The notes beneath the pieces are model-generated. The model searched no databases. It saw only the letters and a program-made list of their open reading frames with translations, and was not told the origin of the DNA. A DNA stretch of 64,000 nt, from the NCBI RefSeq assembly GCF_008041935.1, contig NZ_VKAC01000011.1, forward strand, positions 124,001 through 188,000, given 5' to 3'. This DNA is from Quadrisphaera setariae. GTDB taxonomy: Bacteria; Actinomycetota; Actinomycetes; Actinomycetales; Quadrisphaeraceae. Every line of letters begins with the position of its first letter. Within the stretch, counting starts at the first letter, position 1. The position numbers were made by a program, and so were the translations under genes. This document shows, one piece after another, positions 15,861-34,823 of the stretch.

Positions 15861-16463
15861 ATGGCCCTGATCCCCGCGCGACCGCTGCGCCACGCCCGCA
15901 CGGACTCACCCCTCGGACCGCTGGTGGTGGTCGTCGACGACGACGGCGCGCTCGCCGGCCTCTACTACGCCGACGGGCACACGCCCGCCCCGCGGCCGAC
16001 CGCCCTCGGCGGCTGCGCCGACCCCGACGACCCGCAGGTCCGCGCCGTCACGTCCGCCGTCCTCGCCTACCTGCGGGGGGAGTCCGACGTGCTGGAGGTG
16101 CCGCTGACCTCGGCCGCGGTGCCCGGCGCCACGGACCTGCAGCGCGCCGTCTGGGCGCAGATCGCCGCGATCCCGCGCGGCCAGACCCGGACCTACGGCG
16201 AGGTGGCCGCGGCGATCGGCAAGCCGACAGCGGTGCGCGCCGTGGGCCAGGCGGTCGGCCGCAACCCGCACTCCCTCGTGGTCCCGTGCCACCGCGTGGT
16301 CGGCTCCGGCGGGAAGATCACCGGCTACGCCGGCGGGGTCGAGGTCAAGCGGCGCCTGCTCGAGCTGGAGGGCGTCACGCTCGGCACCGCCGACGCCACC
16401 GGAACCCCGGTCAGCGACGCACCGGAGGCGCCGGCTCCAGGTGCACCGCCTTCAGCGCCGTGA
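15861..16463 (+). CDS. ogt: Methylated-DNA--protein-cysteine methyltransferase
   Basis: A 200-residue suicide repair protein that transfers the methyl group from O6-methylguanine in DNA to its own cysteine. The active-site motif VPCHRV places the acceptor at C143. The preceding [41 protein letters not shown] is the DNA-binding helix-turn-helix and arginine finger. The C-terminal 25 residues are a Pro/Ala-rich tail beyond the usual end. ATG 15861 is chosen because the family N-terminus starts just after it. The last 53 bases overlap the 3' end of the aldehyde dehydrogenase on the other strand. Confidence 0.95.
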
Positions 16464-17901
16464 GCTCGCCCAGCAGGTCCGGTCCGTAGCCGCGGCCGCG
16501 TCCGGAGGAGCGGCGCGGGTCGGCGGAGCCACCGGGAGCCCCGCCCCAGACGGCGTTGACCTTGACCGTGCCCACCTCCAGCTCGTCCGCGGCCTGCAGC
16601 GCGTGGGCGGTGTCGGGCGTCAGCACGGTGGCGGCCAGGCCGTAGGCGCCGGAACCGGCCAGGCGCAGGCCCTCCTCCCAGTCGGCCACCACGCGCACCG
16701 CGGCGACGGGACCGAACGTCTCCTCGGTCATGACGTCCATGTCGTCGGTGCACCCGACCAGCACGGTCGGCGGGTACCAGGCGCCGGGCCGGTCCAGCCG
16801 CTCACCACCGGCCAGCACCCGTGCCCCCGCCGCGCGAGCGGCCTCGACGTGCGCGGCCACCACGGCGAGCTGCCGCTCGTCGACCAGCGGGCCGAGCTGG
16901 CTGTCCGGGTCAGCGGGATCGGCGACGACGAGGCCGCGGGCGAGCTCCACCAGCTCGGCGAGCACGGCGTCGGCGACGTCGGCGTGCAGGTAGACGCGCT
17001 CCACGGAGGTGCACAGCTGACCGGTGTTGGTGAAGGCACCCGCCGCGACCTGGGCGGCGGCCCAGGCCGGGTCGACGCCGGCGTCGACGAGGAGCGGGTC
17101 CTTCCCGCCGTTCTCCAGCAGCGCGATCGCGCCGCGAGCGCCGGTGACGGCGCCGATGCGGCGCCCGGTGGCGGTGGAGCCGACCTGCGCCACGACGTCG
17201 ACGCGGTCGTCGGCGACCAGCACCTCCCCCACCTCCCCGTCCCCGGTGACCACCTGCAGGACGCCCGGGGGCAGCGCCGCGGCGACGAGCGCGGCCATCG
17301 CCGCTCCGGGCCCGCTGGAGCGCTCCGACGGCTTGTGCACCACGGTGTTGCCCGCCACGAGCGCCGCGGCGAGCAGGCCGGCGGCTGCGGGGAACGGGTC
17401 GTTCCAGGGCGTGATGACGGCGACGGTGCCCCGCGGCTCGCGGCGGACCACGTCGATGGCGCCCGACGAGCCCGCCAGCGACCTGCCGGCGTCGAGCACG
17501 CCCGTGGTGGCCGCCTCCTCGAGCAGCTCCGCGGCCACCGCTGCGGACCCGCGGGCCTGGCCGACGAGGCGACCGGTGGTGGCGACGAGGAGGTCGCCGA
17601 GCACGTCGGCGTGGTCCCGCACGGACGCGGCGGCGGCCCGCAGGGCGGCGGCGCGCTCGCCGGGCGCGGTCGTCCGCCAGCCGCGGCGGGCGGCGCGGGC
17701 ACCTGCGAGCGCGGCCTCGACCTGCTCCGGTGAGGCGCAGCGGACCTCCCCGGCGGGCTCACCGGTGGTCGGGTCCACCAGGGGCAGGGACCGGCCCGCG
17801 GCGTCGACCGGAGCGCCGTCCAGCCAGCAGCCCGTGGTCAGCGCGGGCACGTGCAGGGGGCTCGTGGGCTCGGTGGACCCCGTGGCATCGGTCAGCGTCA
17901 C
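16411..17901 (-). CDS. Aldehyde dehydrogenase (NAD(P)-dependent)
   Basis: A 496-residue ALDH-superfamily enzyme. The NAD-binding block VAVITPWNDPFPAAAGLLAAALVAGNTVVHKPSE, the general-base region LLENGGKDPLLVDAGVD and the nucleophile in FTNTGQLCTSVERVYLH are present, with TEETFGPVAAV towards the C-terminus. The usual ELGGK motif reads ENGGK, but the glutamate is kept. Substrate specificity (betaine, succinate semialdehyde or others) cannot be assigned. Neighbours give no pathway hint. Its 3' end overlaps ogt by 53 bases. Confidence 0.93.
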   Translation of the reverse strand: MTLTDATGSTEPTSPLHVPALTTGCWLDGAPVDAAGRSLPLVDPTTGEPAGEVRCASPEQVEAALAGARAARRGWRTTAPGERAAALRAAAASVRDHADVLGDLLVATTGRLVGQARGSAAVAAELLEEAATTGVLDAGRSLAGSSGAIDVVRREPRGTVAVITPWNDPFPAAAGLLAAALVAGNTVVHKPSERSSGPGAAMAALVAAALPPGVLQVVTGDGEVGEVLVADDRVDVVAQVGSTATGRRIGAVTGARGAIALLENGGKDPLLVDAGVDPAWAAAQVAAGAFTNTGQLCTSVERVYLHADVADAVLAELVELARGLVVADPADPDSQLGPLVDERQLAVVAAHVEAARAAGARVLAGGERLDRPGAWYPPTVLVGCTDDMDVMTEETFGPVAAVRVVADWEEGLRLAGSGAYGLAATVLTPDTAHALQAADELEVGTVKVNAVWGGAPGGSADPRRSSGRGRGYGPDLLGELTALKAVHLEPAPPVRR

Positions 17902-17968: not shown

Positions 17969-18020
17969 TGATCGACCACTGATCGACTTTCGAGGTGTCC
18001 GCGTCTGCCCTAGACACCTC
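17969..18020 (+). promoter_or_regulatory. Promoter/operator region of the carbamoyltransferase-heptose cluster
   Basis: TGATCGAC is repeated directly at 17969-17976 and 17980-17987. A perfect 8-base inverted repeat, GAGGTGTC (17992-17999) and GACACCTC (18013-18020), follows. The right arm contains TAGACA (18011-18016), a -10-like box seven bases before the ATG at 18024; there is no ribosome site. This suggests a leaderless promoter controlled by a repressor at the inverted repeat, or a hairpin at the transcript start. No regulator gene is adjacent. Confidence 0.5.
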
Positions 18021-18023
18021 CCC

Positions 18024-19748
18024 ATGAAGGTCTTGGGCGTCAACGCGGTCTTCCACGACTCCTCCGCCGCGCTCGTGGTGGACGGCGTCGTGGTGGCCGC
18101 CGCCGAGGAGGAGCGCTTCTCCCGGCGCAAGCACGGCAAGCGCCCCGTCCCGTTCTCGGCGTGGGAGCTGCCCGAGCTGGCGATGCGCTGGTGCCTGGAC
18201 CACGCGGGCCTGGCGGTGGACGACCTCGACGCCGTCGCCTACGGCTACGACCCGTCGATGGCGCTGTCGGAGGAGGAGGGCCACGAGCGCGGCCTGCGCG
18301 ACCCGTGGGACCACCTGCGCACCACGTACGCCTCCCGCGCCGCCGGGTTCCTCGCCACCGCGCTGCCGGGGCTGGACAAGGAGAAGGTGGTCTTCGTCCC
18401 CCACCACGTCGCGCACGCGGCGAGCTCGGGCCTGCCCGGACCGTCCACCACCGGCAGCGTCCTCGTGCTGGACGGCCGCGGCGAGCGCGGGAGCCACCTG
18501 TCGGGCCGCTACGTCGGCGGGAAGCTCGAGGTGCTGGCCACCACCGAGCTGCCGCACTCCCTGGGCCTGGTCTACGAGTCGCTCACCGACCACCTGGGCT
18601 TCCTGCGGTCCTCCGACGAGTTCAAGGTCATGGCGATGGCCTCCTACGGCACGCCGCGCCACCTCGAGGCGCTGCGCGAGCACGTCCACGCCACCGGCGA
18701 CGGCCGGTTCGTGGCCACCGAGCCCGACTGGAGCCGCTTCGCCCCGCGGCGCACCCCCGCCGAGGCGGCCGCCACGAGCGCCGAGGCCCTCCCTCCCGAG
18801 CACGCCGACCTCGCCGCGTCCGTGCAGGCGCTCACCGAGGAGGTCCTCGTGGACCTGGCCACCTGGCTGCACGCCCAGACCGGCGACACCCTGCTGACCA
18901 TGGCCGGCGGCACCGCGCTGAACTGCGTGGCCAACACGAAGATCTGGCAGCGCACCCCGTTCGAGCGCGTGTGGGTGCAGCCGGCCGCCGGAGACTCCGG
19001 CACGGCCCTGGGCGCCGCGCTGCAGGTGGCCGCGGAGCACGGCGACCGCATCCGTCCCATGGGCACCGCGGCGCTGGGCCGGGAGTGGACCGACGAGCAG
19101 CTGGCTGACTGGCTGCGCACGGCCGAGGTGCCCTTCACCACCCCCGGCAGCCGCGAGGCGCTCGCCGAGGAGGTGGCCGACGTGCTCGCCGCCGACGGCG
19201 TGGTCGCCTGGTTCGACGGGCGCAGCGAGTTCGGGCCCCGCGCCCTGGGCCACCGCTCCCTCATCGCCCACCCGGGCCACGCGCACAACGTGGAGCGCAT
19301 GAACGACGTCAAGGGCCGCGAGCAGTTCCGCCCCATCGCCCCGATGGTGCTGGCCGAGCGCGCGACCGAGGTCTTCGAGAACGGGCCCTTCCCCAGCCCG
19401 TACATGCTCTTCGTGCACGACGTGAAGGACGGGTGGCGCGAGAGGATCCCCGCTGTGACGCACGTCGACGGCACCGCCCGCATCCAGACCGTCTCCGACG
19501 GCACAGGCGGCACAGCCGGGGTCGACGGAGGAGTCGACGAGAGCGCGAACCCCGGCGTCCACGCCCTCATCAGCGCCTTCGAGCGGCGCACCGGGCTGCC
19601 CGTCGTGGTGAACACCAGCCTCAACACCGCTGGACGCCCCATGGTCGACGACCCCCGCGACGCCCTCGAGCTGTTCGGGTCCGCCCCCGTCGACGTGCTG
19701 GTCCTCGGGCCGCACCTCGTGCGCCGGCAGTCGCTGTTCGCCTCGTGA
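18024..19748 (+). CDS. Carbamoyltransferase (NodU/CmcH/TobZ family)
   Basis: A 574-residue two-domain enzyme that makes carbamoyl-adenylate from carbamoyl phosphate and ATP and transfers the carbamoyl group to a hydroxyl, usually of a sugar. The N-terminal Kae1-like domain starts MKVLGVNAVFHDSSAALVVDG and carries the metal-binding VPHHVAHAAS (H127-H131). The C-terminal YrdC-like part has FDGRSEFGPRALGHRSL, EQFRPIAPMV and VVNTSLN. It opens a chain of overlapping genes for heptose synthesis and glycosyl transfer; its stop shares GTGA with the next start. The simplest inference is carbamoylation of the heptose or another sugar of the glycan. CmcH-like action on a small metabolite is the alternative. 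Confidence 0.93.
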   Translation: MKVLGVNAVFHDSSAALVVDGVVVAAAEEERFSRRKHGKRPVPFSAWELPELAMRWCLDHAGLAVDDLDAVAYGYDPSMALSEEEGHERGLRDPWDHLRTTYASRAAGFLATALPGLDKEKVVFVPHHVAHAASSGLPGPSTTGSVLVLDGRGERGSHLSGRYVGGKLEVLATTELPHSLGLVYESLTDHLGFLRSSDEFKVMAMASYGTPRHLEALREHVHATGDGRFVATEPDWSRFAPRRTPAEAAATSAEALPPEHADLAASVQALTEEVLVDLATWLHAQTGDTLLTMAGGTALNCVANTKIWQRTPFERVWVQPAAGDSGTALGAALQVAAEHGDRIRPMGTAALGREWTDEQLADWLRTAEVPFTTPGSREALAEEVADVLAADGVVAWFDGRSEFGPRALGHRSLIAHPGHAHNVERMNDVKGREQFRPIAPMVLAERATEVFENGPFPSPYMLFVHDVKDGWRERIPAVTHVDGTARIQTVSDGTGGTAGVDGGVDESANPGVHALISAFERRTGLPVVVNTSLNTAGRPMVDDPRDALELFGSAPVDVLVLGPHLVRRQSLFAS

Positions 19749-21418
19749 GGCCCGGTGGTGGTGGCCCGCGCTGGGCGGTGGTCGTCCCCTCGGTGGGCCG
19801 TCCCAGCCTGCAGGTGCTGCTCGCCTCGCTGGCCGCTCAGGACACGGGGGAGGACGACGACGGCGGCGCCCTGCCGGCGCTCGTCGTCGTCGCTGACGAC
19901 CGGCGCCTGACCGACGGGGGCTCGGGCCCTGCGGCGCTGCGGCCCGTGCTCGGCGCGCGCGGCGTGGAGCTCGTCGTGGTGCGCTCGGGAGGGCGCGGGC
20001 CGGCCGCGGCCCGCAACCTGGGGTGGCGCACCGCCGCGGCCCGCGTGGACGGCCTGGAGTGGGTGGCGTTCGTCGACGACGACGTCGAGCTGCCGCCGGC
20101 GTGGTCGCGCGAGCTGCTCGCCGACCTCGCCGACCTCGCCGCCGCGGGCGCCGTGGACCCCGGGCCCGCCGTCGGCGGCTCGCAGGGGCGCCTGCGCGTG
20201 CCGCTGCCGGCAGACCGCCGCCCCACGGACTGGGAGCGCGGCACCGCGGGGCTGGCCGACGCGGCGTGGGCCACCGCCGACATGGCCTACCGCCTCGACG
20301 CGCTGGTGGCCGTCGGCGGCTTCGACGAGCGCTTCCCCCGCGCCTACCGCGAGGACGCCGACCTGGCCCTGCGCGTGGAGCGGGCCGGCTGGTCGCTGGT
20401 GCGCGGTCGGCGCACCGCCGTGCACCCCGTGCGCCCCGCCGACGACCTCGTGAGCCTCCGCGTGCAGCGCGGCAACGCCGACGACGTCCTCATGGCCGCC
20501 CTGCACGGCCCCACGTGGCGCCGCGACGCGCAGGCCCCGCCCGGACGGCTGCGCTGGCACGCGGCGACCACGGCAGCCCTCGCGGCGGCCGGTCTCGGCG
20601 CGCTGACCGGCCACCGGCGCACGGCGGCGCTGGGCGCCCTGGCGTGGGCCGGGCTCACCGCCGACTTCGCCCGCCTGCGCATCACCCCCGGCCCGCGCGA
20701 CACCGCCGAGGTGCGCCGCATGGTGCTGACGTCCGCCGCCATCCCCGTCGCCGCGGTGTGGCACCGCGCTCGAGGCCTCGCCCGCTGGCACCGACCCGGT
20801 GCGGGACCCGTGGCGCCGTGGCCGCAGGCCGTGCGCGAGGAGCCTCTCGCCGCCGTCCTCTTCGACAGGGACGGCACCCTCGTCCACGACGTCGCCTACA
20901 ACGGAGACCCGGCCCAGGTGCGCCTGGTCGACGGCGCCCGCGAGGCGCTGGCCCGCGTGCGCGCCGCCGGGCTGCGCACCGGGATGGTCACCAACCAGTC
21001 CGGCGTCGCGCGCCGGATCATCACGCGCGACCAGGCCGACGCCGTCACCGCCGAGGTGGTCCGCCAGGTCGGCGGGCTCGACGTGGTCATGACGTGCCCC
21101 CACGGCCCCGACGACTCCTGCCCGTGCCGCAAGCCCGGCCCCGGCATGGTGGTCGAGGCCGCCCGCCGCCTCGGCGTGCCGACCTCGCGGGTCGCGGTGG
21201 TCGGCGACATCGCCGCCGACGTCGGCGCCGCGGTGGCCGCCGGCGCTCGAGGTGTGCTCGTCCCGACGCCCGTGACACGCTCGGAGGAGGTGGCGGCCGC
21301 CCGTGAGACGGCCACCTCCGGCGGCCCCGTCCTCGGTGTCGCCCCCGACCTGTCCGGCGCCCTGGACCTGCTGCTCGGCGCCGCGAACCGCCACTCACCG
21401 GCCGGAGGCCACGCATGA
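19745..21418 (+). CDS. Fusion: GT2 glycosyltransferase + GmhB-type heptose-bisphosphate phosphatase
   Basis: A 557-residue fusion. Residues 8-255 are a GT-A family 2 transferase: AVVVPSVGRPSLQVLL, GPAAARNLGWRTAA, the DxD-type FVDDDVELP at 109-117 and GGFDERFPRAYREDADLALR. Residues 270-345 hold two hydrophobic stretches that may touch the membrane. Residues 366-545 are a HAD histidinol-phosphatase/GmhB domain with AVLFDRDGTLV (D374, D376), VTNQSGVAR, a zinc loop CPHGPDDSCPC (C451, H453, C459, C461) and VVGDIAADVGAA. GmhB removes the 7-phosphate of heptose 1,7-bisphosphate. Fused to a glycosyltransferase and lying upstream of a GmhA-HldE fusion, it supplies the one missing phosphatase step. GTG overlaps the upstream stop. 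Confidence 0.9.
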   Translation: MRPGGGGPRWAVVVPSVGRPSLQVLLASLAAQDTGEDDDGGALPALVVVADDRRLTDGGSGPAALRPVLGARGVELVVVRSGGRGPAAARNLGWRTAAARVDGLEWVAFVDDDVELPPAWSRELLADLADLAAAGAVDPGPAVGGSQGRLRVPLPADRRPTDWERGTAGLADAAWATADMAYRLDALVAVGGFDERFPRAYREDADLALRVERAGWSLVRGRRTAVHPVRPADDLVSLRVQRGNADDVLMAALHGPTWRRDAQAPPGRLRWHAATTAALAAAGLGALTGHRRTAALGALAWAGLTADFARLRITPGPRDTAEVRRMVLTSAAIPVAAVWHRARGLARWHRPGAGPVAPWPQAVREEPLAAVLFDRDGTLVHDVAYNGDPAQVRLVDGAREALARVRAAGLRTGMVTNQSGVARRIITRDQADAVTAEVVRQVGGLDVVMTCPHGPDDSCPCRKPGPGMVVEAARRLGVPTSRVAVVGDIAADVGAAVAAGARGVLVPTPVTRSEEVAAARETATSGGPVLGVAPDLSGALDLLLGAANRHSPAGGHA

Positions 21419-22554
21419 CCGCCCAGCAGGACCCGAGGCGCGTGCTCGCCGTCCGCCTCGACAGCGACGGCGACGTCCTCATGACCGGCCCAGCGATCGC
21501 CGCCCTGCGCCGCGGCCCGGGCGGCACCGAGGTGGAGCGGCTCGACCTGCTCGCCGCCCCCGGCGGCGCCGGTGCCGCGCGGCTGCTGCCCGGGATCGAC
21601 GAGGTGCTCGTCGCCGACGTGCCGTGGTCCGGCTACCAGCCGCCGGCCCCGGACGCCGCGGCGCTGACCGCCCTCGTCGACCTCCTGCGCGAGCGCTCCT
21701 ACGACGAGGTCGTCGTCTTCACCTCCTACCACCAGAGCCCGCTGCCGATGGCGGTCCTCGCGCGCCTGGCCGGGGTGCCCCGCGTCATCGCCGCCAGCGA
21801 CGACTACCCCGGCTCCCTGCTCGACCTGCGCCACAAGCGCCCCGGCGACCCCGACGGCACCGGCGGCGAGCACGAGGTGGTCGCCAGCCTCGGGCTGGTG
21901 GCCGCCAGCGGCCGCGTCATCCCCGCCGACCCGCGCACGGCGCTGCGCCGACCGCTCCCCGGGGTGCCGGGCTGGCTCCTGGAGCGCAGCACCACGGCCA
22001 CCGGTGCCCTCGTCGTCGTCCACCCGGGAGCCTCCGTGCCGGCCCGCGCGGCGCGGCCCGACGTCGTCGCCCGCGCCACGGCCGCCCTCGTCGAGGCGGG
22101 CCACCACGTGGTGGTGACCGGCGGCCCCGGTGAGGTGGACCTCACCGGCCGCGTGGCGGCCGCGGCGCCCGGAGCGCTCGACGCCGGCGGGCGCACGTCG
22201 CTCGGCGAGCTGGCGGCGCTGCTGGACGCGGCGGACGTCGTCGTCGTGGGCAACACCGGACCGGCGCACCTGGCGGCAGCCGTCGGGACGCCCGTGGCCA
22301 GCCTCTTCTCCGCGGTGATGCCGGTGGAGCGGTGGGCGCCCTTCGGCGTGCCCGTGGTGGTGCTCGGAGACCTCGACGCCCCCTGCCGCCTCACGCGCGC
22401 GCAGCGCTGCCCGGTCGGAGACGGGAGCGGCCACCCCTGCCTCGACGTCTCCCCGGAGGCCGTCGTCGCGGCCGTCGCCGACCTCGCCTCCGGGCGCGTG
22501 CCCGTGCCGCCGCCGGCGCAGCCCGTCGCCGTCGAGGCCGGGCAGGCGCTGTGA
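21415..22554 (+). CDS. GT9-family (heptosyltransferase-like) glycosyltransferase
   Basis: A 379-residue GT-B protein of family 9, whose best-known members (WaaC, WaaF) transfer heptose from ADP-heptose. The N-terminus RVLAVRLDSDGDVLMTGPAIAALRR is the GT9 start. LVVVHPGASVPARAARPDVVARATAAL and VVVGNTGPAHLAAAVGTPVASLFSAVMPVERWAPF are the donor-binding half, with the conserved TGPAHLA. A C-terminal CRLTRAQRCP...HPCL block with cysteines resembles that of other GT9 enzymes. ATG overlaps the previous stop (ATGA). Position in a cluster making ADP-heptose supports ADP-heptose as donor; the acceptor is unknown. Confidence 0.92.
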   Translation: MTAQQDPRRVLAVRLDSDGDVLMTGPAIAALRRGPGGTEVERLDLLAAPGGAGAARLLPGIDEVLVADVPWSGYQPPAPDAAALTALVDLLRERSYDEVVVFTSYHQSPLPMAVLARLAGVPRVIAASDDYPGSLLDLRHKRPGDPDGTGGEHEVVASLGLVAASGRVIPADPRTALRRPLPGVPGWLLERSTTATGALVVVHPGASVPARAARPDVVARATAALVEAGHHVVVTGGPGEVDLTGRVAAAAPGALDAGGRTSLGELAALLDAADVVVVGNTGPAHLAAAVGTPVASLFSAVMPVERWAPFGVPVVVLGDLDAPCRLTRAQRCPVGDGSGHPCLDVSPEAVVAAVADLASGRVPVPPPAQPVAVEAGQAL

Positions 22555-23570
22555 CAGGCCCGCCCCGGCGCCCGAGGGTCCTCCTCTGGCACGTCCACGG
22601 CTCGTGGACCACGGCCTTCGTGCAGGGCCGCCACGACTACCTCGTGCCCGTGCTGCCCGACCGCGGCCCGGACGGCCGCGGCCGCGCCCGCACGTGGGAC
22701 TGGCCCGCGTCGGTGCGTGAGGTCACCCCCGAGCAGCTCGCTGACAGCACGCGCGGCGGCGACGCCCGCCCCGACGTCGTCCTCCTCCAGCGCCCCCACG
22801 AGGCGGAGCTGCTGCGGGAGTGGACCGGGCTGCGCGCCGGGGTCGACGTCCCGGCCGTCTACGTCGAGCACGACGCCCCCCGTGAGCACGCGGTCCGCTC
22901 GCGCCACCCCCTGGCCGACGCCACCTCCGAGGGGCGGGCACCGCTCCCGGTGGTGCACGTGACGCACTTCAACGCGCTCATGTGGGACTGCGGCGACGTG
23001 CCCACCCGGGTGGTGGAGCACGGCGTCGTCGACCCCGGCCACCTCGCCACCGGTGAGCGGGCCTCGCTCGCGGTGGTGGTCAACGAGCCGGTGCGCCGCT
23101 GGCGCGTGGCCGGCACCGACCTCGTGGTGGACCTGGCCCAGCGGGTGCCGCTGGACGTGTACGGCATGGGGATGGACGCGCTGCAGAGGTGCGCGCCCCA
23201 CCTCGCCGGCCACCTCCACGAGGACCTGCCGCAGGCGCGGATGCACGCGGAGGTGGCCCGCCACCGCGCCTACTTCCACCCCTACCGGTGGACCAGCCTC
23301 GGGCTGGCGCTGGTGGAGGCCATGACCATGGGCCTGCCGGTCCTGGCCCTGGCCACCACGGCGGCGCCCGAGTCGGTGCCGCCGGAGGCGGGGTTCCTGT
23401 CCGCGGACCCCGCCGCGCTGGAGCGGACGGCCCAGCGCTGGCTGGCCGACCCGGCCGAGGCGCGAGAGCGTGGCCTCGCCGCCCGCGAGCACGCCCTGCG
23501 CCGCTTCGGGCTGGCGCGCTTCCTCGCCGACTGGGACGACGTCCTGGAAGGCGCCGGGGTCCAGCAGTAG
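22551..23570 (+). CDS. GT-B glycosyltransferase (GT4-like)
   Basis: A 339-residue protein that starts at GTG 22551, overlapping the upstream stop. The N-terminal VLLWHVHGSWTTAFVQGRHDYLVPV is an unusual acceptor domain. The C-terminal half carries HRAYFHPYRWTSLGLALVEAMTMGLPVLALATT, the E-x7-E-like donor-binding motif of retaining GT4 enzymes. Actinobacterial homologues of this type are usually annotated only as glycosyltransferase. Donor and acceptor cannot be predicted. Strict overlap with both flanking transferases argues for a shared product. The 53-base gap after it is the longest before the next gene in the cluster. Confidence 0.85.
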   Translation: MTGPPRRPRVLLWHVHGSWTTAFVQGRHDYLVPVLPDRGPDGRGRARTWDWPASVREVTPEQLADSTRGGDARPDVVLLQRPHEAELLREWTGLRAGVDVPAVYVEHDAPREHAVRSRHPLADATSEGRAPLPVVHVTHFNALMWDCGDVPTRVVEHGVVDPGHLATGERASLAVVVNEPVRRWRVAGTDLVVDLAQRVPLDVYGMGMDALQRCAPHLAGHLHEDLPQARMHAEVARHRAYFHPYRWTSLGLALVEAMTMGLPVLALATTAAPESVPPEAGFLSADPAALERTAQRWLADPAEARERGLAAREHALRRFGLARFLADWDDVLEGAGVQQ

Positions 23571-23622
23571 GCCCCCGGGGTCGAGCACGCGGCCCCTTCC
23601 TGGACCTACCCAGGAGACACCG

Positions 23623-24918
23623 ATGAGGATCGCGATGGTCTCCGAGCACGCCAGTCCCCTGGCGGTCCTCGGAGGTGTCGACGCCGGCGGGCAGAACGTG
23701 CACGTCGCAGCCCTGGCGCAGGCGCTGGCCGCCCGCGGTCACCAGGTGGAGGTGCACACCCGGCGCGACGCGCCGGACCTGCCGCGGCGCGTGCGCATGG
23801 GCCCGGGCGTGGACGTGGTCCACGTCGACGCCGGTCCGCCGCGGCCGGTGCCGAAGGACGAGCTGCTGCCCTGGATGCCGGCGTTCGCCGCCCAGCTGAG
23901 GCGCTCCTGGGCCTCCCCCGGCTCCCGGCCCGACGTGGTGCACGCCCACTTCTGGATGTCCGGGCTGGCCGCGCTGGAGGCCGGGCGCGCGCTCGGCGTG
24001 CCCGTGGTGCAGACCTTCCACGCCCTCGGCTCCGTCAAGCGCCGCCACCAGGGGGACCACGACACCTCCCCGGCGGAGCGCGTGGCGCTGGAGGCGGGCC
24101 TCGTGCGCGACGTCGACCTCGTGGTGGCCACCTGCCGCGACGAGGTCGCCGAGCTCGACGCCCTGGCCGCACCGCGCCGCCGCCCCGCGGTGGTGCCGTG
24201 CGGGGTGGACCTGGAGCACTTCGAGCCCGAGGGCCCCGTGGAGCCGCGCGCCGCGGGCAGTCCGCGGTTCCGGCTGGTGAGCGTGGGCCGGCTCGTGGAG
24301 CGCAAGGGCGTGGAGACGGCCGTGCGCGCCCTCGCCGTGCTGCCCGACGCCGAGCTGGTGGTGGCGGGTGGTCCTCCGCCGCGCGAGCTGCACCTCGACC
24401 CGGAGGCCGTGCGCCTGCGGAGCGTGGCGCGCTCCCTGGGCGTGGCCGACCGGCTGCTGCTCGTGGGACAGGTGGAGCAGCCCGACGTGCCGCGGCTGCT
24501 CCGCTCGGCCGACGTGTCGGTCAACGCGCCCTGGTACGAGCCGTTCGGCATCGCCCCGCTGGAGGCCATGGCCTGCGGCCTGCCCGTGGTCGGCACGGCC
24601 GTCGGTGGGCTGCTCGACACCGTGGTGGAGGGCGCCACCGGCGCGCTCGTGGAGCCGCGCGACACCGCGGCGCTGGCCGCGACGGTGCGCGCGCTGCTCG
24701 ACGACCCCGCCCGGCGCCGCCGGTGGGGCCGCGCGGGGCGCCGCCGGGCGCTGGCCCACTACGGCTGGGACCGCGTGGCGGCATCGACCGAGGACGCCTA
24801 CGGTCGGGCCCTGAGGGGCACGGCCCGGCGCGCGGCGACTGCCGCGGCGCCGAAGGGCCCCGCATCCCCGCTGGTGCGCGGTCCTGCGCTGCACCTCGAC
24901 GAGCAGGAGGCGGTGTGA
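23623..24918 (+). CDS. GT4-family glycosyltransferase
   Basis: A 431-residue GT-B enzyme. RIAMVSEHASPLAVLGGVDAGGQNVHVAALAQALAARGH is the N-terminal glycine-rich acceptor loop shared with sucrose synthase- and MshA-like enzymes. VGRLVERKGVETAVRAL, APWYEPFGIAPLEAMACGLPVVGTAVGGLLDTV and a final helix form the UDP/NDP-sugar domain, with the EPFGIAPLEA catalytic motif near residue 305. ATG 23623 has CAGGAG upstream, so this gene has its own ribosome site, unlike its neighbours. The C-terminal 35 residues are Ala/Pro-rich and end in DEQEAV, overlapping the next GTG start. Donor unknown. Confidence 0.92.
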   Translation: MRIAMVSEHASPLAVLGGVDAGGQNVHVAALAQALAARGHQVEVHTRRDAPDLPRRVRMGPGVDVVHVDAGPPRPVPKDELLPWMPAFAAQLRRSWASPGSRPDVVHAHFWMSGLAALEAGRALGVPVVQTFHALGSVKRRHQGDHDTSPAERVALEAGLVRDVDLVVATCRDEVAELDALAAPRRRPAVVPCGVDLEHFEPEGPVEPRAAGSPRFRLVSVGRLVERKGVETAVRALAVLPDAELVVAGGPPPRELHLDPEAVRLRSVARSLGVADRLLLVGQVEQPDVPRLLRSADVSVNAPWYEPFGIAPLEAMACGLPVVGTAVGGLLDTVVEGATGALVEPRDTAALAATVRALLDDPARRRRWGRAGRRRALAHYGWDRVAASTEDAYGRALRGTARRAATAAAPKGPASPLVRGPALHLDEQEAV

Positions 24919-27158
24919 GCACCCTGGGCGCTCCCGACCACAGCACGCACCCGACCAGCCGCACGACGCCGGCGGCCGACTGGCTGGCCGGTCACCGCAG
25001 CGAGGTCGACGCGACCGTCGGCGGCCTGCAGGCCGCCGCGGCCCGGCTCGACGCCTGGGGCCGCCACCTCGCCGCCGTCCTGGACGGCGGGGGCCGGCTG
25101 CTGGCCGCCGGCAACGGCGGCAGCGCCGCCGAGGCCCAGCACCTCACCGCCGAGCTCGTCGGCAGGTTCGTCGACGAGCGCAAGCCGCTGTCGGCCATCG
25201 CGCTGCACGCGGAGTCGTCCTCCACCACCGCCATCGGCAACGACTACGGCGCCGCCAAGGTCTTCGCCCGTCAGGTGCAGGCGCACGGCCGGCCCGGTGA
25301 CGTGCTGCTGCTGCTCTCCACGTCGGGGCGCAGCGAGAACGTCGTCCGCGCCGCGCAGGCGGGCCGCCGCGCCGGCCTGCGGGTGTGGGCCCTCACCGGG
25401 CCCGCCCACAGCCCGCTGGCGGAGGCCAGCGACGAGGTGCTGCGCGTCGGCGAGCCGGGCTCGTCCACCTCCGCGGTGCAGGAGGGCCACCTCGTGGTGG
25501 TCCACGCGCTGTGCGCCGCTGTGGACGCCCACCTCCTCGCCGCCACCACCGGGACGACGACGAGCGCCGCCGCGCCCGTCCCCGCTGCAGCTGCAGGTGC
25601 CAGCGCTGAGCCGCTCGACCTGCGCTCTGCCGATCAACCGGCCGATCAGCCGGCCGACCGGCCGGCGCGGGCGGCGCGGTCCGCCGGTGACCGCCGCCCC
25701 CGCGTCGTCGTGGTCGGTGACGCCGTGCTCGACCGCGACCTGCTCGGGCGCAGCGACCGCGTGGCCCCCGACGCCCCCGTGCCCGTGGTCGACGTCACCG
25801 GTCTCGACGAGAGCCCCGGCGGCGCCGGCCTGACGGCCCTGCTCGTGGCCGGTCGCGCCCGCACCTCGCTGGTGGCCCCGGTGGCCGACGACGACGCGGG
25901 CCGCCGCCTCCGCGAGGCCCTCGAGAGCCCCTCCGGCGGCGTCGAGGGCGTCGAGGTGGTCGCGCTCGGCCACGCCGGCGGCACCCGCACCAAGACCCGC
26001 GTGCGCGTGGCCGGCCAGTCCCTCGTCCGCCTCGACGAGGGCGGCCCCGCCACCCCGGTGGAGGTCGACCTCGCCGTGCTCGCCGAGGCCCTGGCCGACG
26101 CCGACGTCGTGCTGGTCAGCGACTACGGCGCCGGCACCACGCGCGACCCCGCCGTGCGCGAGGCGCTGGCGCAGGCGGCCCGCCGCGTGCCCGTGGTGTG
26201 GGACCCGCACCCGCGCGGAGGGGCGCCCGTGCCCGGCTGCGCCCTGGTGACGCCCAACCTCTCGGAGGCGCGCGCCGCGGCCTCGCCGGGCGTCGCGGGC
26301 GCCTCGCCCGACGTGCTCGCCGAGCACCTCGCCTCCACGTGGGGCGTGCGCGGGGTCTGCGTCACGACCGGGGCGCAGGGCGCCTGGCTCGCCTCCCCCG
26401 GCACCGACGCGGTGTTCGCCCCCGCCGCCGTGGTGGCCGGCGGTGACCCGTGCGGCGCCGGCGACAGCTTCGCGGCCTCGGCCGCGGTGTCGCTGGCCAC
26501 CGGCCGGGTGCTGTCGGAGGCCGTCGTCGCCGCCGTGGCCGACGCCTCGGCGTGGGTCGCCGCAGGCGGTGCCTCCGGCTGGCGCGCGGCCCAGCGCGAG
26601 GCGGCCTCGCAGGGCGCCGCCGCGGCGGCTGCCGGCGCGGCCGAGCGCAGCGCTCCGAGCACCGCCGCCGACGTGGTCGCCCGCGTCCGGGCGACCGGCG
26701 GCACCGTGGTGGCCACCGGCGGCTGCTTCGACGTGCTGCACGCCGGGCACGTCGCCACCCTCGAAGCCGCGCGCCGCCTGGGCGACGCGCTCGTCGTCCT
26801 GCTCAACGCCGACTCCTCCGTCCGCCGGCTCAAGGGCCCCACCCGTCCGGTGAACGACGAGGTGGACCGCGCCCGCGTGCTCGCGGCGCTGGACTGCGTG
26901 GACGCCGTCGTCGTCTTCTCCGAGGACGACCCCCGCGCCGCCCTCGCGCAGGTCCGCCCCGACGTCTGGGCCAAGGGCGGTGACTACGGCGGCGCCGAGC
27001 TGCCCGAGGCGCCGCTCGTGCGCAGCTGGGGCGGACGCGTCGTGCTGCTGCCCTACCTCGACGGGCGCTCGACCACCTCCATCCTCGCCCGCGGCGCCCT
27101 GCCGGCGTCGACGTCGGCCACCCCCGCAGACCGCACCACCCAGGAGACCGCCCGGTGA
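24915..27158 (+). CDS. Three-domain ADP-heptose synthesis enzyme: GmhA isomerase + HldE kinase/adenylyltransferase
   Basis: A 747-residue fusion with three enzymatic domains in pathway-relevant form. Residues 20-210 are a GmhA-type SIS isomerase (AAGNGGSAAEAQHLTAELVGRF 65-84, AIGNDY 106-111, STSGRSENV 135-143, AVQEGH 187-192) converting sedoheptulose 7-phosphate to heptose 7-phosphate. Residues 211-260 are an Ala/Pro/Asp linker. Residues 262-560 are a PfkB-type heptose-7-phosphate kinase (GDAVLDRDLLG, SPGGAG 299-304, base D517 in PCGAGDSF). Residues 590-735 are the adenylyltransferase (GGCFDVLHAGH with H609/H612, AKGGDY). With the GmhB domain upstream, all activities for ADP-D-glycero-beta-D-manno-heptose are present. 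GTG overlaps the upstream stop. Confidence 0.93.
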   Translation: MSTLGAPDHSTHPTSRTTPAADWLAGHRSEVDATVGGLQAAAARLDAWGRHLAAVLDGGGRLLAAGNGGSAAEAQHLTAELVGRFVDERKPLSAIALHAESSSTTAIGNDYGAAKVFARQVQAHGRPGDVLLLLSTSGRSENVVRAAQAGRRAGLRVWALTGPAHSPLAEASDEVLRVGEPGSSTSAVQEGHLVVVHALCAAVDAHLLAATTGTTTSAAAPVPAAAAGASAEPLDLRSADQPADQPADRPARAARSAGDRRPRVVVVGDAVLDRDLLGRSDRVAPDAPVPVVDVTGLDESPGGAGLTALLVAGRARTSLVAPVADDDAGRRLREALESPSGGVEGVEVVALGHAGGTRTKTRVRVAGQSLVRLDEGGPATPVEVDLAVLAEALADADVVLVSDYGAGTTRDPAVREALAQAARRVPVVWDPHPRGGAPVPGCALVTPNLSEARAAASPGVAGASPDVLAEHLASTWGVRGVCVTTGAQGAWLASPGTDAVFAPAAVVAGGDPCGAGDSFAASAAVSLATGRVLSEAVVAAVADASAWVAAGGASGWRAAQREAASQGAAAAAAGAAERSAPSTAADVVARVRATGGTVVATGGCFDVLHAGHVATLEAARRLGDALVVLLNADSSVRRLKGPTRPVNDEVDRARVLAALDCVDAVVVFSEDDPRAALAQVRPDVWAKGGDYGGAELPEAPLVRSWGGRVVLLPYLDGRSTTSILARGALPASTSATPADRTTQETAR
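25630..25665 (+). repeat. Three imperfect 12-base repeats in the fusion linker
   Basis: CCGATCAACCGG, CCGATCAGCCGG and CCGACCGGCCGG lie head to tail and encode the DQPADQPADRP stretch joining the GmhA and HldE parts of the fusion. The repeats keep the reading frame and look like a linker that grew by slippage. Confidence 0.8.
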
Positions 27159-27901
27159 CCAGCGCGACCCCCAGCACCACCCCCCTGCTCGACGGCATGG
27201 AGCTCGAGCGCCCGCTCGGCACCGTCTACGTCACGGGCGGATCCAGCGGTCTCGGGGCCGCCGTCGTGGAGGTGGTGACCGCGCTGGGCGGCACCGCCGC
27301 GGTCATCGACAGGGCCGCTCCGCCGCAGGGCTCGGCAGCGGCCGCGCACGCCCTCGCGGACGTGTCGGACTCCGCCGCCGTCGAGCGGGCCGTGGCGTCC
27401 CTGGTCGAGCAGGTGGGGCCGCCCACCGCGCTCTTCACCGCCGCTGGGACCGACGCGGTGGGGCGCCTCGAGGACGTCCCCACCGACCGGTGGGAGAAGG
27501 TGATCGGGGTGAACCTCATCGGCACGGCGGCCGCTGTGCGCGCCTGCCTGCCGCACCTCCTCGCCGCCCGCGGCACGGTCGTCACCGTGGCCAGCTCCCT
27601 GGGCCTGCGCGCCGCGAGCGACGCCACGGCGTACTGCGCGAGCAAGTTCGGCATCGTCGGGTTCACGCGCTCGCTGCAGCTGGAGCTGGCGGGGCAGGTG
27701 GGCGTGACGATGCTGGTGCCCGCCGGCATGCGCACCGCCTTCTTCGACGGGCGCACCGAGCAGTACCGGCCCGGCCCCGACGCTGCCCTCATGGACCCGC
27801 GCCAGGTGGCGCTGTCGGTGGTGCACGCCCTGCGCCAGCCGGTCGGCACCGAGGTGCGCGAGATCGTCGTCACGGTGTCCACGGAGCCGTCCTGGCCCTG
27901 A
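27155..27901 (+). CDS. Short-chain dehydrogenase/reductase (classical SDR)
   Basis: A 248-residue classical SDR. TVYVTGGSSGLGAAVVEVV (about 23-41) is the NAD(P)-binding TGxxxGxG motif. VNLIGTAAAVRACLPHL, the serine of VTVASSLGL and the YCASK catalytic motif near residue 163 are complete. Length and the YxxxK context mark a classical SDR, not an extended SDR like the HldD heptose epimerase. It overlaps the HldE fusion stop (GTGA), so it is probably part of the same product pathway, perhaps oxidising or reducing the sugar. Its substrate is not predictable. Confidence 0.9.
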   Translation: MTSATPSTTPLLDGMELERPLGTVYVTGGSSGLGAAVVEVVTALGGTAAVIDRAAPPQGSAAAAHALADVSDSAAVERAVASLVEQVGPPTALFTAAGTDAVGRLEDVPTDRWEKVIGVNLIGTAAAVRACLPHLLAARGTVVTVASSLGLRAASDATAYCASKFGIVGFTRSLQLELAGQVGVTMLVPAGMRTAFFDGRTEQYRPGPDAALMDPRQVALSVVHALRQPVGTEVREIVVTVSTEPSWP

Positions 27902-27911
27902 CGGCCCTGCC

Positions 27912-28862
27912 GTGACGACGACGGTGCTCGCGCTGCGGGCCCTGGGGCTGGGTGACGCCCTCACCGGCGTCCCCGCCCTGCGGGGCCTGCGGCGGGCCCG
28001 ACCGGAGGCCCGGCTGGTGCTGGCCGGCCCGCCCGAGACCGGCGGGCTGCTGGTGGACGAGGGTGTGGTCGACGCGGTGCTCCCCGTGCGGGGCCTGGCT
28101 CCGCTCGAGCCCGAGGCCCTGGTGCGCGCCGCCGCCGAGCACCCCGCGGTGCTGGGCGGACTCGGCCCGTCGACGGTGGACCTCGCGGTCAACCTCCACG
28201 GCCGCGGCCCGCAGAGCACGGCGGCGCTGGCCGCGCTGCGGCCGCGCGAGCTCGTGGCGTTCGACCGCCCCGGCCAGCCGGTCTGGGACGGCGAGGCCCA
28301 CGAGGTCGAGCGCTGGTGCTCCCTCGTCAGGTCCCTGGGCGGTGCGTGCGGCCCCGAGGACCTCGTGCTGCGCGACGTGCCCCTAGGCGCGCGCACGGGT
28401 CCGGTGGTGGTGCACCCCGGCGCCGCCTCACCGTCCCGGCGCTGGCCCGCCGAGCGCTGGGCCCGAGTGGTGGCCGCCCTGGCCGGCGCCGGTCGCGTCA
28501 TCGTCGTCACGGGTGGGCCGGACGAGGCCGGCGCGTGCGCCGAGGTGGCCGCCGCCGGTGCCGCCGACCTGTGCGGGCGGCTGTCGCTGGCGCAGCTGCT
28601 GGAGCTGGTCGCGACGAGCCCCCTGCTGCTGTCCGGTGACACCGGAGCCGCGCACGTGGCCACGGCCGCGCGCACGCCGTCGGTGCTGCTGTTCGGGCCG
28701 ACGTCGCCCGCGCGGTGGGGGCCCGCGGTCGACCACGACCGGCACCGGGTGCTGTGGCGCTCCCGTGCGGGGGACGCGCCGGGTGACCCGCACGGGGTGT
28801 CCCCCGACCCCGTCCTCCTCCGCACGACGGTGCGCGACGTCCTCGCAGGTACGGTGGACTGA
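27912..28862 (+). CDS. GT9-family (heptosyltransferase-like) glycosyltransferase
   Basis: A 316-residue GT9 protein, the second in the cluster. The start TTVLALRALGLGDALTGVPALRGLRRARP is the family N-terminal motif (LGDxL). GPVVVHPGAASPSRRWPAERWARVV and LLLSGDTGAAHVATAARTPSVLLFGPTSPARWGP carry the donor-binding residues, with the typical GDTGxAH. The GTG start lies 10 bases after the SDR stop. ADP-heptose is the likely donor given the upstream genes. The two GT9 proteins differ enough to suggest two successive heptose transfers or two donor forms. Confidence 0.92.
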   Translation: MTTTVLALRALGLGDALTGVPALRGLRRARPEARLVLAGPPETGGLLVDEGVVDAVLPVRGLAPLEPEALVRAAAEHPAVLGGLGPSTVDLAVNLHGRGPQSTAALAALRPRELVAFDRPGQPVWDGEAHEVERWCSLVRSLGGACGPEDLVLRDVPLGARTGPVVVHPGAASPSRRWPAERWARVVAALAGAGRVIVVTGGPDEAGACAEVAAAGAADLCGRLSLAQLLELVATSPLLLSGDTGAAHVATAARTPSVLLFGPTSPARWGPAVDHDRHRVLWRSRAGDAPGDPHGVSPDPVLLRTTVRDVLAGTVD

Positions 28863-29341: not shown

Positions 29342-29346
29342 GCGAA

Positions 29347-32150: not shown

Positions 32151-32708
32151 TCACCGCAGCGGGAGGGTCTCCACCGGCTCCCAGGGGCCGCCGTCGTAGC
32201 GCCACACCTCCAGCGCCGCCGCGCGGGCGGTCCACGGCGCCACCTCCACCTCGAGGCGGTCCGCGAGCGCTCGCGCCCGGACGGGGTCGACCTTGTTCTG
32301 CACCGTGACGTGCGCCCGCAACCGCTGGCGGTCCTGAGCGGTGAGGGACTCGTCCCCCAGCTCGCTGCGCAGGCGCGCCAGCAGCCGCGCGTGCAGCGCG
32401 TCCAGGTCGCGGGAGGCCAGGCGCAGCGCCGTCCCCCGGCCCAGCCTCAGGACCTCCCCGACGCGCACCTCGAAGGCCGCGGTGGACTCCGCGTGCTCGG
32501 CGAGCAGCTCCTGGACGCGGTGGGCACCGGCGGACGGCAGCGCGTGGAAGAGCGTCACGTGGGCGGGCAGGTGGTTGCGGTCCGCCGGGAAGTGCGCCCG
32601 ACGGAGGTCGTCCAGCCGCGCCTGGCTGGCCTCGTCCAGGGCCAGCGTCACGACGAGCGGGCGCCCGTCGGCGCCCTCGTGAGACCGGTGGACCGCAGCG
32701 GCGCTCAT
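32151..32708 (-). CDS. 2H phosphoesterase / 2'-5' RNA ligase family protein
   Basis: A 185-residue protein with the two HxTx motifs of the 2H superfamily, HVTLFHAL (about residues 49-56) and HVTVQNK (about 133-139), on the expected LigT/CPDase fold. Members hydrolyse 2',3'-cyclic nucleotides or ligate RNA; the physiological substrate is unknown. The ATG overlaps the stop of the upstream epimerase gene (ATGA, 32705-32708), so the two are translationally coupled although no functional link is obvious. Confidence 0.85.
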   Translation of the reverse strand: MSAAAVHRSHEGADGRPLVVTLALDEASQARLDDLRRAHFPADRNHLPAHVTLFHALPSAGAHRVQELLAEHAESTAAFEVRVGEVLRLGRGTALRLASRDLDALHARLLARLRSELGDESLTAQDRQRLRAHVTVQNKVDPVRARALADRLEVEVAPWTARAAALEVWRYDGGPWEPVETLPLR

Positions 32709-33742
32709 GCGGCCTGCCGGAGCCCCGAGAAGAAGGCGACGGTGGAGGCCAGGCCCTGCTGCCACGGCACGGCCGGCTCCCAGCCCAGCAGCGTGCGCGC
32801 CAGCGTCGTGTCCGGGCGGCGCACCTGCGGGTCGTCGACGGGACGCTCCACGAACCGCACCTGCGAGCGGGACCCGGTGGCGGCCACCACGTCCTCGGCG
32901 ATCTGCTTCACGGTCATCTCGTGCGGGTTGCCCACGTTGACCGGGCCCGGGTGGCCGCTGCCGGCCAGCGCGAGGATGCCGCGCACCAGGTCGTCGACGT
33001 AGCAGACCGACCGGGTCTGCATCCCGTCGCCGGCCACGGTGATGTCCTCCCCCGCCAGCGCCTGGCGGATGAAGGTGGGGATGGCGCGCCCGTCGTGCGG
33101 GCGCATCCGCGGCCCGTAGGTGTTGAAGATGCGCACGATGGCGGTGTCGACGTCGTGCGTGGTGCGGTAGGCGGTGGTCATGGCCTCGCCGTAGCGCTTG
33201 GCCTCGTCGTAGACCCCGCGCGGTCCGACGGGGTTGACGTGGCCCCAGTAGTCCTCCGGCTGCGGGTGCACCTGCGGGTCTCCGTAGACCTCGCTGGTGG
33301 AGGCCAGCAGGAAGCGCGCGCCCTTCTCCTTGGCCAGCCCGAGGGCGTGCAGGGTGCCGATCGCACCGACCTTGAGGGTCTCGATCGGCAGCTGCAGGTA
33401 GTCGATCGGGGAGGCCGGGGAGGCGAAGTGCAGGACCAGGTCGACGTCGCCGGGGACGTGCACGAAGTCGGTGATGTCGCAGCGGACCATCCGGAACTGC
33501 GAGGACGGGTAGCGCTCGGCGAGGTGGGCGACGTTGCCCGGCCCGCCGGTGAGGAAGGAGTCCAGGCACACCACCTGGGTGCCGCGCGCGAGCAGCTCCT
33601 CGCACAGGTGGCTGCCGAGGAAGCCGGCCCCGCCGGTCACGACCGCCCGGCGGAAGCCGCGCTGCGGCAGCACCGTCGAGCCGGTGGTCGGTCCGGTGGT
33701 GCTGCGCGGGCTGTCGGGCTGGCTGGTGCTGGGCTGGGCCAC
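32705..33742 (-). CDS. UDP-glucuronate decarboxylase-like epimerase (UDP-xylose synthase)
   Basis: A 345-residue extended SDR. RRAVVTGGAGFLGSHLCEELL (31-51) binds NAD, ASTSEVYGDPQVHPQPEDYWGHVN (147-170) contains the TSE triplet characteristic of UXS enzymes, and GVYDEAKRYGEA supplies Y178 and K182. A C-terminal RSVCYVDDLVRGI follows. UXS converts UDP-glucuronate to UDP-xylose. GTG 33742 has GGGGAG eight bases upstream. It is divergent from two GT2 genes at 33870, so UDP-xylose or a related pentose may be their donor. It is not the HldD epimerase for the heptose cluster. Confidence 0.88.
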   Translation of the reverse strand: MAQPSTSQPDSPRSTTGPTTGSTVLPQRGFRRAVVTGGAGFLGSHLCEELLARGTQVVCLDSFLTGGPGNVAHLAERYPSSQFRMVRCDITDFVHVPGDVDLVLHFASPASPIDYLQLPIETLKVGAIGTLHALGLAKEKGARFLLASTSEVYGDPQVHPQPEDYWGHVNPVGPRGVYDEAKRYGEAMTTAYRTTHDVDTAIVRIFNTYGPRMRPHDGRAIPTFIRQALAGEDITVAGDGMQTRSVCYVDDLVRGILALAGSGHPGPVNVGNPHEMTVKQIAEDVVAATGSRSQVRFVERPVDDPQVRRPDTTLARTLLGWEPAVPWQQGLASTVAFFSGLRQAA

Positions 33743-33869: not shown

Positions 33870-34823
33870 ATGCCCAGCACCTCCTCCCCCGACGAGCTCC
33901 TCGACCCGCGCCTCGGCGTCGTGGTGATCACCTGGCAGCGCCGCGAGGAGGCCCTCGCCGCCGTCGGGCGGCTGCTGGACCTGCCCGAACGGCCCCGCGT
34001 GGTCGTCATCGACAACGGCTCCACGGACGGCACGGCGGGCGCGCTGCGCCGCGCCCACCCGGCGGCCGTGGCGTCCGGGCAGCTCGAGGTGGTGCCGCTG
34101 GCGCACAACGCGGGCGCCGTGGGGCGCAACGTCGGGGTGGCGCGCCTGGCGGAGCTGGGTCTGCGCTACGCGGCGTTCTGCGACGACGACACCTGGTGGG
34201 AGCCCGGCAGCCTCGCGCGCGCCGGCGACGTGCTGGACGCTCACCCCGACGTCGCCGTGCTCACCGCGCGCATCGTCGTGGAGCCCAGCGGCCGCGAGGA
34301 CCCGATCGTCGCGGAGCTGCGCGACTCCCCCGTGGTGGGTTCCCGGCCCGACCTGCCGGGCCCGGCGCTGGGGAGCTTCCTGGCGGGGGCGTCGGTGGTC
34401 CGCGTCGACGCGTTCACGCAGGTCGGCGGCTTCTCGGCGCGGCTGTGGCTGGGCGGGGAGGAGGAGATGTGCGCCGCCGACCTCGCCGCCGCCGGCTGGG
34501 AGCTGTGCTACCTGCCCGACCTCACCGTGCACCACCTGGCCTCGACGCTCCGCGACTCCTCGCTGCGGCGCCGCCACGGCATCCGCAACACCGTGTGGTT
34601 CACGCTGCTGCGCCGCCCGTGGCCGGCGGCGCTGCGCCGGCTGCGCGTCCTGGCGCGGCAGGTCCCCAAGGACCGGACCACGGTGCTGGCCGTGGCCGAC
34701 GCCGCCCGCGGCCTGCCGTGGGTGCTGCGCGAGCGCCGGCCGCTGCCGCCGCACGCCGAGGCGCGCTTCCTCGCCCTGGAGGACGCCCAGACCCGCTCGA
34801 CGGCGAGGAGCTACGTCGGATGA
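33870..34823 (+). CDS. GT2-family glycosyltransferase (first of a tandem pair)
   Basis: A 317-residue GT-A transferase. GVVVITWQRREEALAAV, VVVIDNGSTDGTAGALR, the metal/donor motif AAFCDDDTWWEPGSL (about 107-121) and GGFSARLWLGGEEEMCAADLAAAGWELCYLPDLTVHH mark family 2. No membrane helix is seen. The next gene overlaps it by four bases and encodes a close relative. Divergent UXS-like gene upstream. Donor and acceptor unknown. Confidence 0.9.
   Translation: MPSTSSPDELLDPRLGVVVITWQRREEALAAVGRLLDLPERPRVVVIDNGSTDGTAGALRRAHPAAVASGQLEVVPLAHNAGAVGRNVGVARLAELGLRYAAFCDDDTWWEPGSLARAGDVLDAHPDVAVLTARIVVEPSGREDPIVAELRDSPVVGSRPDLPGPALGSFLAGASVVRVDAFTQVGGFSARLWLGGEEEMCAADLAAAGWELCYLPDLTVHHLASTLRDSSLRRRHGIRNTVWFTLLRRPWPAALRRLRVLARQVPKDRTTVLAVADAARGLPWVLRERRPLPPHAEARFLALEDAQTRSTARSYVG

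Follow-up and report, generated by a model that had tools for sequence, protein, structure and literature searches.

A cwg-type gene set in Quadrisphaera setariae predicted to build a carbamoylated heptose- and xylose-containing glycan

Introduction

The closest described relative of the locus reported here is the cwg operon of Streptomyces coelicolor (SCO6179-SCO6190), which, in the accessible parts of PMC6767563, comprises twelve genes, is induced by vancomycin and is partly sigma-E dependent; its promoter is printed there with 147 bases leading to the start codon. In the extracts of the cited literature available, cwgA is up under salt, and the product of the operon is named only as a putative or predicted cell wall glycan. 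A literature search, with most subscription journals outside its coverage, found no paper giving the structure of this product, nor one linking cwg to heptose chemistry, to a UDP-xylose synthase (UXS) or to Burkholderiales; PMC5563000, PMC13390465 and PMC13274773 contained nothing relevant to the locus in the passages available. The gene set is already known; its chemistry is unsolved in the literature found. Here we analyse a stretch of 64,000 nucleotides of Quadrisphaera setariae DNA (GCF_008041935.1, contig NZ_VKAC01000011.1, positions 124,001 to 188,000; hereafter, the window), in which eight genes (A to H, positions 18024-28862) and three more downstream almost certainly represent, judging from homology and gene order, the orthologous Quadrisphaera form of this operon.

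Two Gram-negative systems provide further points of comparison. With the ADP-heptose pathway the locus shares GmhA, a kinase, a GmhB-type phosphatase, a nucleotidyltransferase and relatives of family 9 glycosyltransferases (GT9), whereas Quadrisphaera has no HldD over the cut-off and no match to LpxC, and its GT9 proteins are remote from WaaC and WaaF. The second is WapO, described in the available part of PMC8005017 in connection with a carbamoylated heptose in the core of Pseudomonas lipopolysaccharide (LPS). A carbamoyltransferase beside heptosyl transfer, with carbamoyl placed on heptose, is what the two would have in common; the likeness is one of role only. Fusions of isomerase, kinase and nucleotidyltransferase are already a recognised class, according to an extract of the commentary PMC11461863.

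Results

Counterparts of the twelve cwg genes

The published cwg promoter was searched in 392 Streptomyces-type genomes, giving seven matches with at most two mismatches, one of them exact. Four of these loci were examined: two contain the full operon (L135 and L136), one only two of its genes (L137) and one none in the stretch (L138). In L135, which has the exact match and lies on a single contig of 8.63 Mb, the promoter is 147 bases ahead of a GTG codon. Twelve genes follow, successively for decarboxylase, carbamoyltransferase, family 2 glycosyltransferase (GT2), GmhB, GT9, D, E, GmhA, HldE, GT9, GT2 and GT2. We regard L135 as the operon of S. coelicolor itself or else one very similar to it.

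When the L135 proteins were used as tblastn queries, all twelve had counterparts in the window, with 48-65% identity, and those of cwgB-C-D-E-F-G-H-I-J are found in the same order and on the same strand between 18024 and 28862 (Table 1). The Quadrisphaera form differs in that cwgC and cwgD are fused, as are cwgH and cwgI, in that a short-chain dehydrogenase/reductase (SDR) gene is inserted ahead of cwgJ, and in that cwgA, cwgK and cwgL lie about 4-7 kb downstream. An earlier note on this DNA, made from its letters alone, had ended the cluster at 28862 and implied that it was novel. Neither point stands: orthologues of cwgA, cwgL and cwgK occupy 32705-35680, with other genes between, and the interpretation as a new cluster was rejected on the matching of all twelve genes to the Streptomyces set. 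Its description of eight plus-strand genes, mostly with 4-base stop/start overlaps, is confirmed at five of the seven junctions, the others being gaps of 52 bases (D-E) and 10 bases (G-H), and its enzyme assignments agree with Pfam and NCBIfam.

A looser pattern of the promoter matched nowhere across 130 loci, and three loci from Streptomyces (L097, L116 and L125) are without the published cwg promoter. By eye, short palindrome-like GAGAA(G/C)-GGTTC(TC) elements are visible upstream of gene A in Georgenia and Cellulomonas loci (L054, L055, L058, L061 and L063), where they may be an operator.

Table 1. Features of the cwg-type locus in the window, with predicted functions and tblastn identity to the cwg counterpart
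Feature	Position	Strand	Predicted function	cwg orthologue (identity)
Aldehyde dehydrogenase	16411..17901	-	PF00171, 394 bits; divergent neighbour of gene A	
Gene A	18024..19748	+	NodU/TobZ-type O-carbamoyltransferase	cwgB (64%)
Gene B	19745..21418	+	GT2 fused to GmhB-type HAD-IIIA phosphatase	cwgC (54%) + cwgD (52%)
Gene C	21415..22554	+	GT9 (heptosyltransferase family); PF01075, 55 bits	cwgE (49%)
Gene D	22551..23570	+	GT4-like GT-B glycosyltransferase; marker of the set	cwgF (54%)
Gene E	23623..24918	+	MshA-like GT4 glycosyltransferase	cwgG (60%)
Gene F	24915..27158	+	GmhA (sedoheptulose-7-phosphate isomerase) fused to HldE (kinase + nucleotidyltransferase)	cwgH (65%) + cwgI (51%)
Gene G	27155..27901	+	SDR oxidoreductase (Pfam/NCBIfam); no counterpart seen in L135, the operon of S. 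coelicolor type	
Gene H	27912..28862	+	Second GT9; PF01075, 91 bits	cwgJ (48%)
Decarboxylase	32705..33673	-	UDP-glucuronate decarboxylase (UDP-xylose synthase); start GTG at 33673 is a best guess	cwgA (64%)
Glycosyltransferase	33870..34823	+	GT2 (Pfam)	cwgL (60%)
Glycosyltransferase	34820..35680	+	GT2-type; 4-base overlap with the cwgL orthologue	cwgK (49%)

Predicted donors: heptose, xylose and carbamoyl

Genes B and F together contain isomerase, kinase, 1,7-bisphosphate phosphatase and nucleotidyltransferase domains, all with their motifs. Among solved structures, gene F matches phosphoheptose isomerases, a heptose-7-phosphate kinase and a putative cytidylyltransferase. For the HAD part of gene B the top match is a putative HAD hydrolase, with D,D-heptose 1,7-bisphosphate phosphatases ranking next. 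The motifs listed in the earlier note are retained in alignments to solved chains of GmhA, the GmhB-type phosphatase, HldA kinase and the putative cytidylyltransferase. Matches bridging both halves of each fusion were also seen in other genera.

HldD did not exceed its cut-off in any of 16 genomes tested, this one included, with weaker epimerase-family matches in all 16; the heptose should for this reason keep its D,D form, and an L,D-heptose product was rejected on the same result. LpxC (PF03331), the sole lipid A gene tested, gave no match in the Quadrisphaera genome and control matches in four of 14 genomes. Synthesis of an LPS core was rejected on this basis, and the earlier description of an organism without LPS is in agreement with it. 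In two genomes of one family, an additional HldE-like gene, less closely related (37-38%), is situated near the set (L045:14812-16224 and L047:6340-7764).

The nucleotidyltransferase part of gene F has the STTR5-like motif YLDGRSTT, with an arginine at the STTR5 position and a tyrosine, rather than phenylalanine or leucine, as first residue. In the commentary PMC11461863, as far as its extract goes, Tang et al. are credited with tying this arginine to the use of CTP and UTP. Among the 84 best matches the position is occupied by R in 66, H in seven, Y in five, Q in two and K, L and W in one each, with one unreadable; some of these loci overlap, and L084 was assigned by eye. The heptose logic put forward for the cluster earlier is retained, but ADP may not be the sole nucleotide: the nucleoside diphosphate (NDP)-heptose may possibly also be a CDP or UDP form.

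The cwgA protein of the window aligns with human UXS1 over its whole length (335 bits), including the SDR motifs TSEVYGD and YxxxK, as would be expected of a UDP-glucuronate decarboxylase; no NCBIfam family for this enzyme was over its cut-off. Its Burkholderiales relatives are annotated as UDP-glucuronate decarboxylase in five plasmid records, and two NDP-sugar dehydrogenase genes of the UDP-glucose dehydrogenase type are over cut-off elsewhere in the genome. These three observations make UDP-xylose a likely donor, and since the decarboxylase and two GT2 genes belong to the set, a pentose donor is probably part of the pathway.

Gene A combines both carbamoyltransferase domains (PF02543 and PF16861; 166 bits for the N-terminal domain, 208 bits for the C-terminal one) with an end-to-end match to a characterised member, TobZ, its best solved match (279 bits), and is predicted to be a NodU/TobZ-type O-carbamoyltransferase. 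A donor set of NDP-D,D-heptose, UDP-xylose and carbamoyl, and with it a heptose/xylose/carbamoyl composition of the product, is on this evidence likely.

Conservation in the Actinomycetes

Gene D (cwgF-type) served as the marker of the set in genome scans. At E <1e-60 it is matched in 98 of 394 genomes drawn across the class, counted among the matches listed, and at E 1e-3 in 337; the weak matches look like other GT4 enzymes. A gene D scan gave 580 confirmed matches, of which the best 80 were kept as named loci; 58 of these are at least 18 kb long and, being drawn from the best 80, are biased towards good matches. Nine core functions are complete in 49 of the 58 and at least eight are present in 54. 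The genes are associated more than chance would have it, since these 49 loci were found by gene D alone. Carbamoyltransferase is present in 52, the decarboxylase in 47, the SDR in 43 and a cwgK/L-type GT2 within reach in 25.

The ordered set, for which the earlier note had proposed a search in actinobacterial genomes, is retained as A to H in most of 20 stretches from the same family and order, several of which are contig fragments or are without some genes; L033 is without G and H, L045 and L047 without A. Some lineages have D, E or the GmhB gene away from the other members. In one family of the class (f22; L139, L140, L141, L143 and L144), the arrangement of D, E and one GT2 with respect to the decarboxylase and carbamoyltransferase genes is altered.

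Related sets on plasmids and in Burkholderiales

A plasmid search with gene D gave 14 records, ten from Burkholderiales and four actinobacterial, one of the latter being chromosome-like at 11.9 Mb. The Streptomyces plasmid p65_CHABEC (L148:6799-19229) carries all twelve cwg-type genes, flanked by STAS, ANTAR, PP2C-phosphatase and CsbD genes. On a Clavibacter plasmid, the surroundings of gene D contain no more than a GT9 and an epimerase, both of them weak matches.

Nine of the ten Burkholderiales records were examined (L145, L146 and L149-L155), with queries partly taken from L145 and L146 themselves. They share with the actinobacterial sets the carbamoyltransferase, a cwgC-type GT2, two GT9s, D, an MshA-like glycosyltransferase and the decarboxylase, with 34-51% identity between the proteins. 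Gene D, the two GT9s and the MshA-like enzyme are present in all nine, the carbamoyltransferase, decarboxylase, GmhB-type phosphatase and a PIG-L deacetylase in eight each, and an ABC protein and a cwgL-type GT2 in seven each. They differ in often having the PIG-L deacetylase and an ABC/receiver-domain protein, and in that GmhA or HldE was found in none of the nine; the HldE nucleotidyltransferase domain was also not found in two whole Burkholderiales replicons searched. This is as expected if the heptose donor comes from LPS synthesis, and we infer that it is borrowed from that of the host, with the ABC protein as candidate exporter. Transmembrane, ATPase and response-regulator domains were found in all three ABC proteins checked. 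These are an unusual fusion: exporter-type proteins of about 890-914 residues, encoded beside the set, that carry a C-terminal receiver domain (L145:3676-6366, L146:4216-6960 and L152:16036-18699).

Of six annotated Burkholderiales loci, four have stress-type genes nearby (for example manganese catalase, hemerythrin, CsbD, BON or DUF4142) and two do not. A suspected link to the low-oxygen-activated (lxa) locus was dropped, as the portions of the literature available did not bear it out. We tentatively propose that one stress-linked carbamoylated heptose/xylose glycoconjugate, partly plasmid-borne, might be common to Gram-positive Actinomycetes and Gram-negative Burkholderiales, and that the ABC/response-regulator fusion might be the export route in the latter and point to the exporter in the former.

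Surroundings of the set and the gene D fold

Pfam scans of a subset of the open reading frames (ORFs) around the cluster gave no transporter, Wzx/Wzy, polymerase or lipid-linked initiator family, in line with the earlier statement that the cluster holds no exporter. None of the cluster proteins has a 19-residue stretch above 1.9 in a crude hydropathy scan.

Neighbouring genes were screened by clustering ORFs over 103 loci, some of them overlapping (e.g., L043/L085), and retaining families present in at least ten; a single ORF length cut-off and a single E-value were used, so that shared families may be missed. No shared transporter was among these families. Five groups resulted: an aldehyde dehydrogenase (27 loci), its two antisense shadows, a polysaccharide pyruvyltransferase-like family and a sigma-70-type factor (ten loci, one member Pfam-checked). 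Membership of the aldehyde dehydrogenase in the set is uncertain. The pyruvyltransferase-like family adjoins the set in 12 loci, 11 of them with the protein itself (in L135 there is an antisense ORF only), and all six members tested matched PF04230; its presence leans towards a polysaccharide product. Examples are L059:4594-5574, L071:1104-2108 and L097:3692-4735, and none is in the window. In the window, a MarR/OhrR-type regulator gene starts on the last base of gene H and is followed by an alpha/beta hydrolase gene (28862-30312), a pair that also adjoins the set in most of the stretches examined from this genus. The window has a G+C content of 76.0%, in a genome of 4.9 Mb.

Structure prediction gave a confident GT-B fold for the gene D protein (mean pLDDT 90.9). 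Its nearest folds (Foldseek, VIA-align) are GT4 enzymes, including wall-, lipid- and thiol-sugar enzymes (PimA, MshA, BshA and TarM-type); many of these relatives are nearly tied in score, so the search names neither a substrate nor an acceptor. Gene E was rejected as the mycothiol enzyme MshA: it scores 243.5 bits against TIGR03449, with a cut-off of 462.5, and a true MshA-type gene elsewhere in the genome scores 604.6.

Discussion

The Quadrisphaera cwg set probably builds a carbamoylated heptose/xylose glycan that is exported to the cell envelope. In the proposed pathway, the activities of which are deduced from homology, sedoheptulose 7-phosphate would be converted to NDP-D-glycero-D-manno-heptose (ADP, possibly also CDP or UDP) by GmhA, GmhB and the two HldE activities, kinase and nucleotidyltransferase, and CwgA would form UDP-xylose by decarboxylating UDP-glucuronate. 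The glycan would be assembled by seven glycosyltransferases that look soluble (three GT2, two GT9 and two GT4-like), in an order of sugars that is likewise conjectural, with the GT9s adding heptose. The carbamoyltransferase would place carbamoyl on a sugar hydroxyl, perhaps of heptose, as for WapO; a carbamoylated heptose is a reasonable inference. Export would depend on proteins encoded elsewhere. The acceptor and location are predictions too: placing the glycan in the envelope is somewhat favoured, and wall attachment is possible, with genes unlinked to the set, as six matches to LytR-CpsA-Psr and two to PF00953 occur in other parts of the genome.

Several observations weigh against this reading. 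None of GmhA, GmhB and the kinase reaches its equivalog cut-off in NCBIfam; the nucleotidyltransferase falls 0.4 bits short of its own. The GT9 proteins are far under the NCBIfam heptosyltransferase cut-offs (WaaC, WaaF and WaaQ; best 57.3 against 170.2 for C, 60.1 against 185.3 for H) and align with solved GT9s only in their C-terminal parts, at 38-44 bits (43.5 for H); matches so weak and partial leave heptose uncertain as the GT9 donor. Carbamoyltransferase is missing from six of the 58 long loci, and neither the Pfam scans nor the neighbour screen linked a lipid or wall-attachment gene to the set. Finally, no sigma-E-type AAC-N16-18-(C/G)GTC was found in 17701-18040 (about 320 bases upstream of A), the pattern being a simple one and another extracytoplasmic function (ECF) promoter possible.

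The alternative that survives best, unlikely as we consider it, has a lipid or inositol-type anchor as acceptor, on which gene E would start a glycolipid, extended by the other glycosyltransferases, so that the product would not be a wall polymer. The MshA-like character of E, the proximity of the D fold to PimA, MshA, BshA and TarM-type enzymes, and the PIG-L (GlcNAc-PI de-N-acetylase family) genes of the Burkholderiales loci are all consistent with this, but PIG-L is absent from the flanking families common to at least ten of the 103 loci, and a common GT-B fold with nearly tied VIA-align rows does not name an acceptor.

A secreted small glycoside, that is, an antibiotic-like carbamoylated heptoside in place of an envelope glycan, is less probable still. 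TobZ and GdmN, the solved carbamoyltransferases nearest to gene A, act in antibiotic pathways, and the cluster scans turned up no gene for wall attachment, for a polymerase or for a lipid-linked initiator. According to the extract of PMC11461863, the antibiotic septacidin makes use of heptose. Against a small glycoside stand the wide conservation of the set (by gene D), the response of the S. coelicolor set to cell wall antibiotics in the accessible text of PMC6767563, the pyruvyltransferase-like polysaccharide gene adjoining some loci, and the scanned ORFs, among which there were no polyketide synthase, non-ribosomal peptide synthetase or resistance genes. A role of the heptose genes in providing NDP-heptose for something else, with the linked glycosyltransferases using common sugars, would fit the weak GT9 matches and a possibly broad donor nucleotide but is very improbable, given that GmhA/HldE are held within the same gene order across the class and that two GT9 genes accompany the set in Burkholderiales too.

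For an envelope glycan of the kind favoured here, the fused enzymes are compact and convenient for in vitro work, and the comparison across phyla reduces the problem to those of acceptor and export. NDP-heptoses trigger innate sensing by ALPK1 (PMC11461863, in the extract available), so a widespread actinobacterial source of them would interest immunologists. In Streptomyces, the cwg operon reports on envelope stress caused by antibiotics, and its genes, read together, give a concrete composition to seek: D,D-heptose, xylose and carbamoyl.

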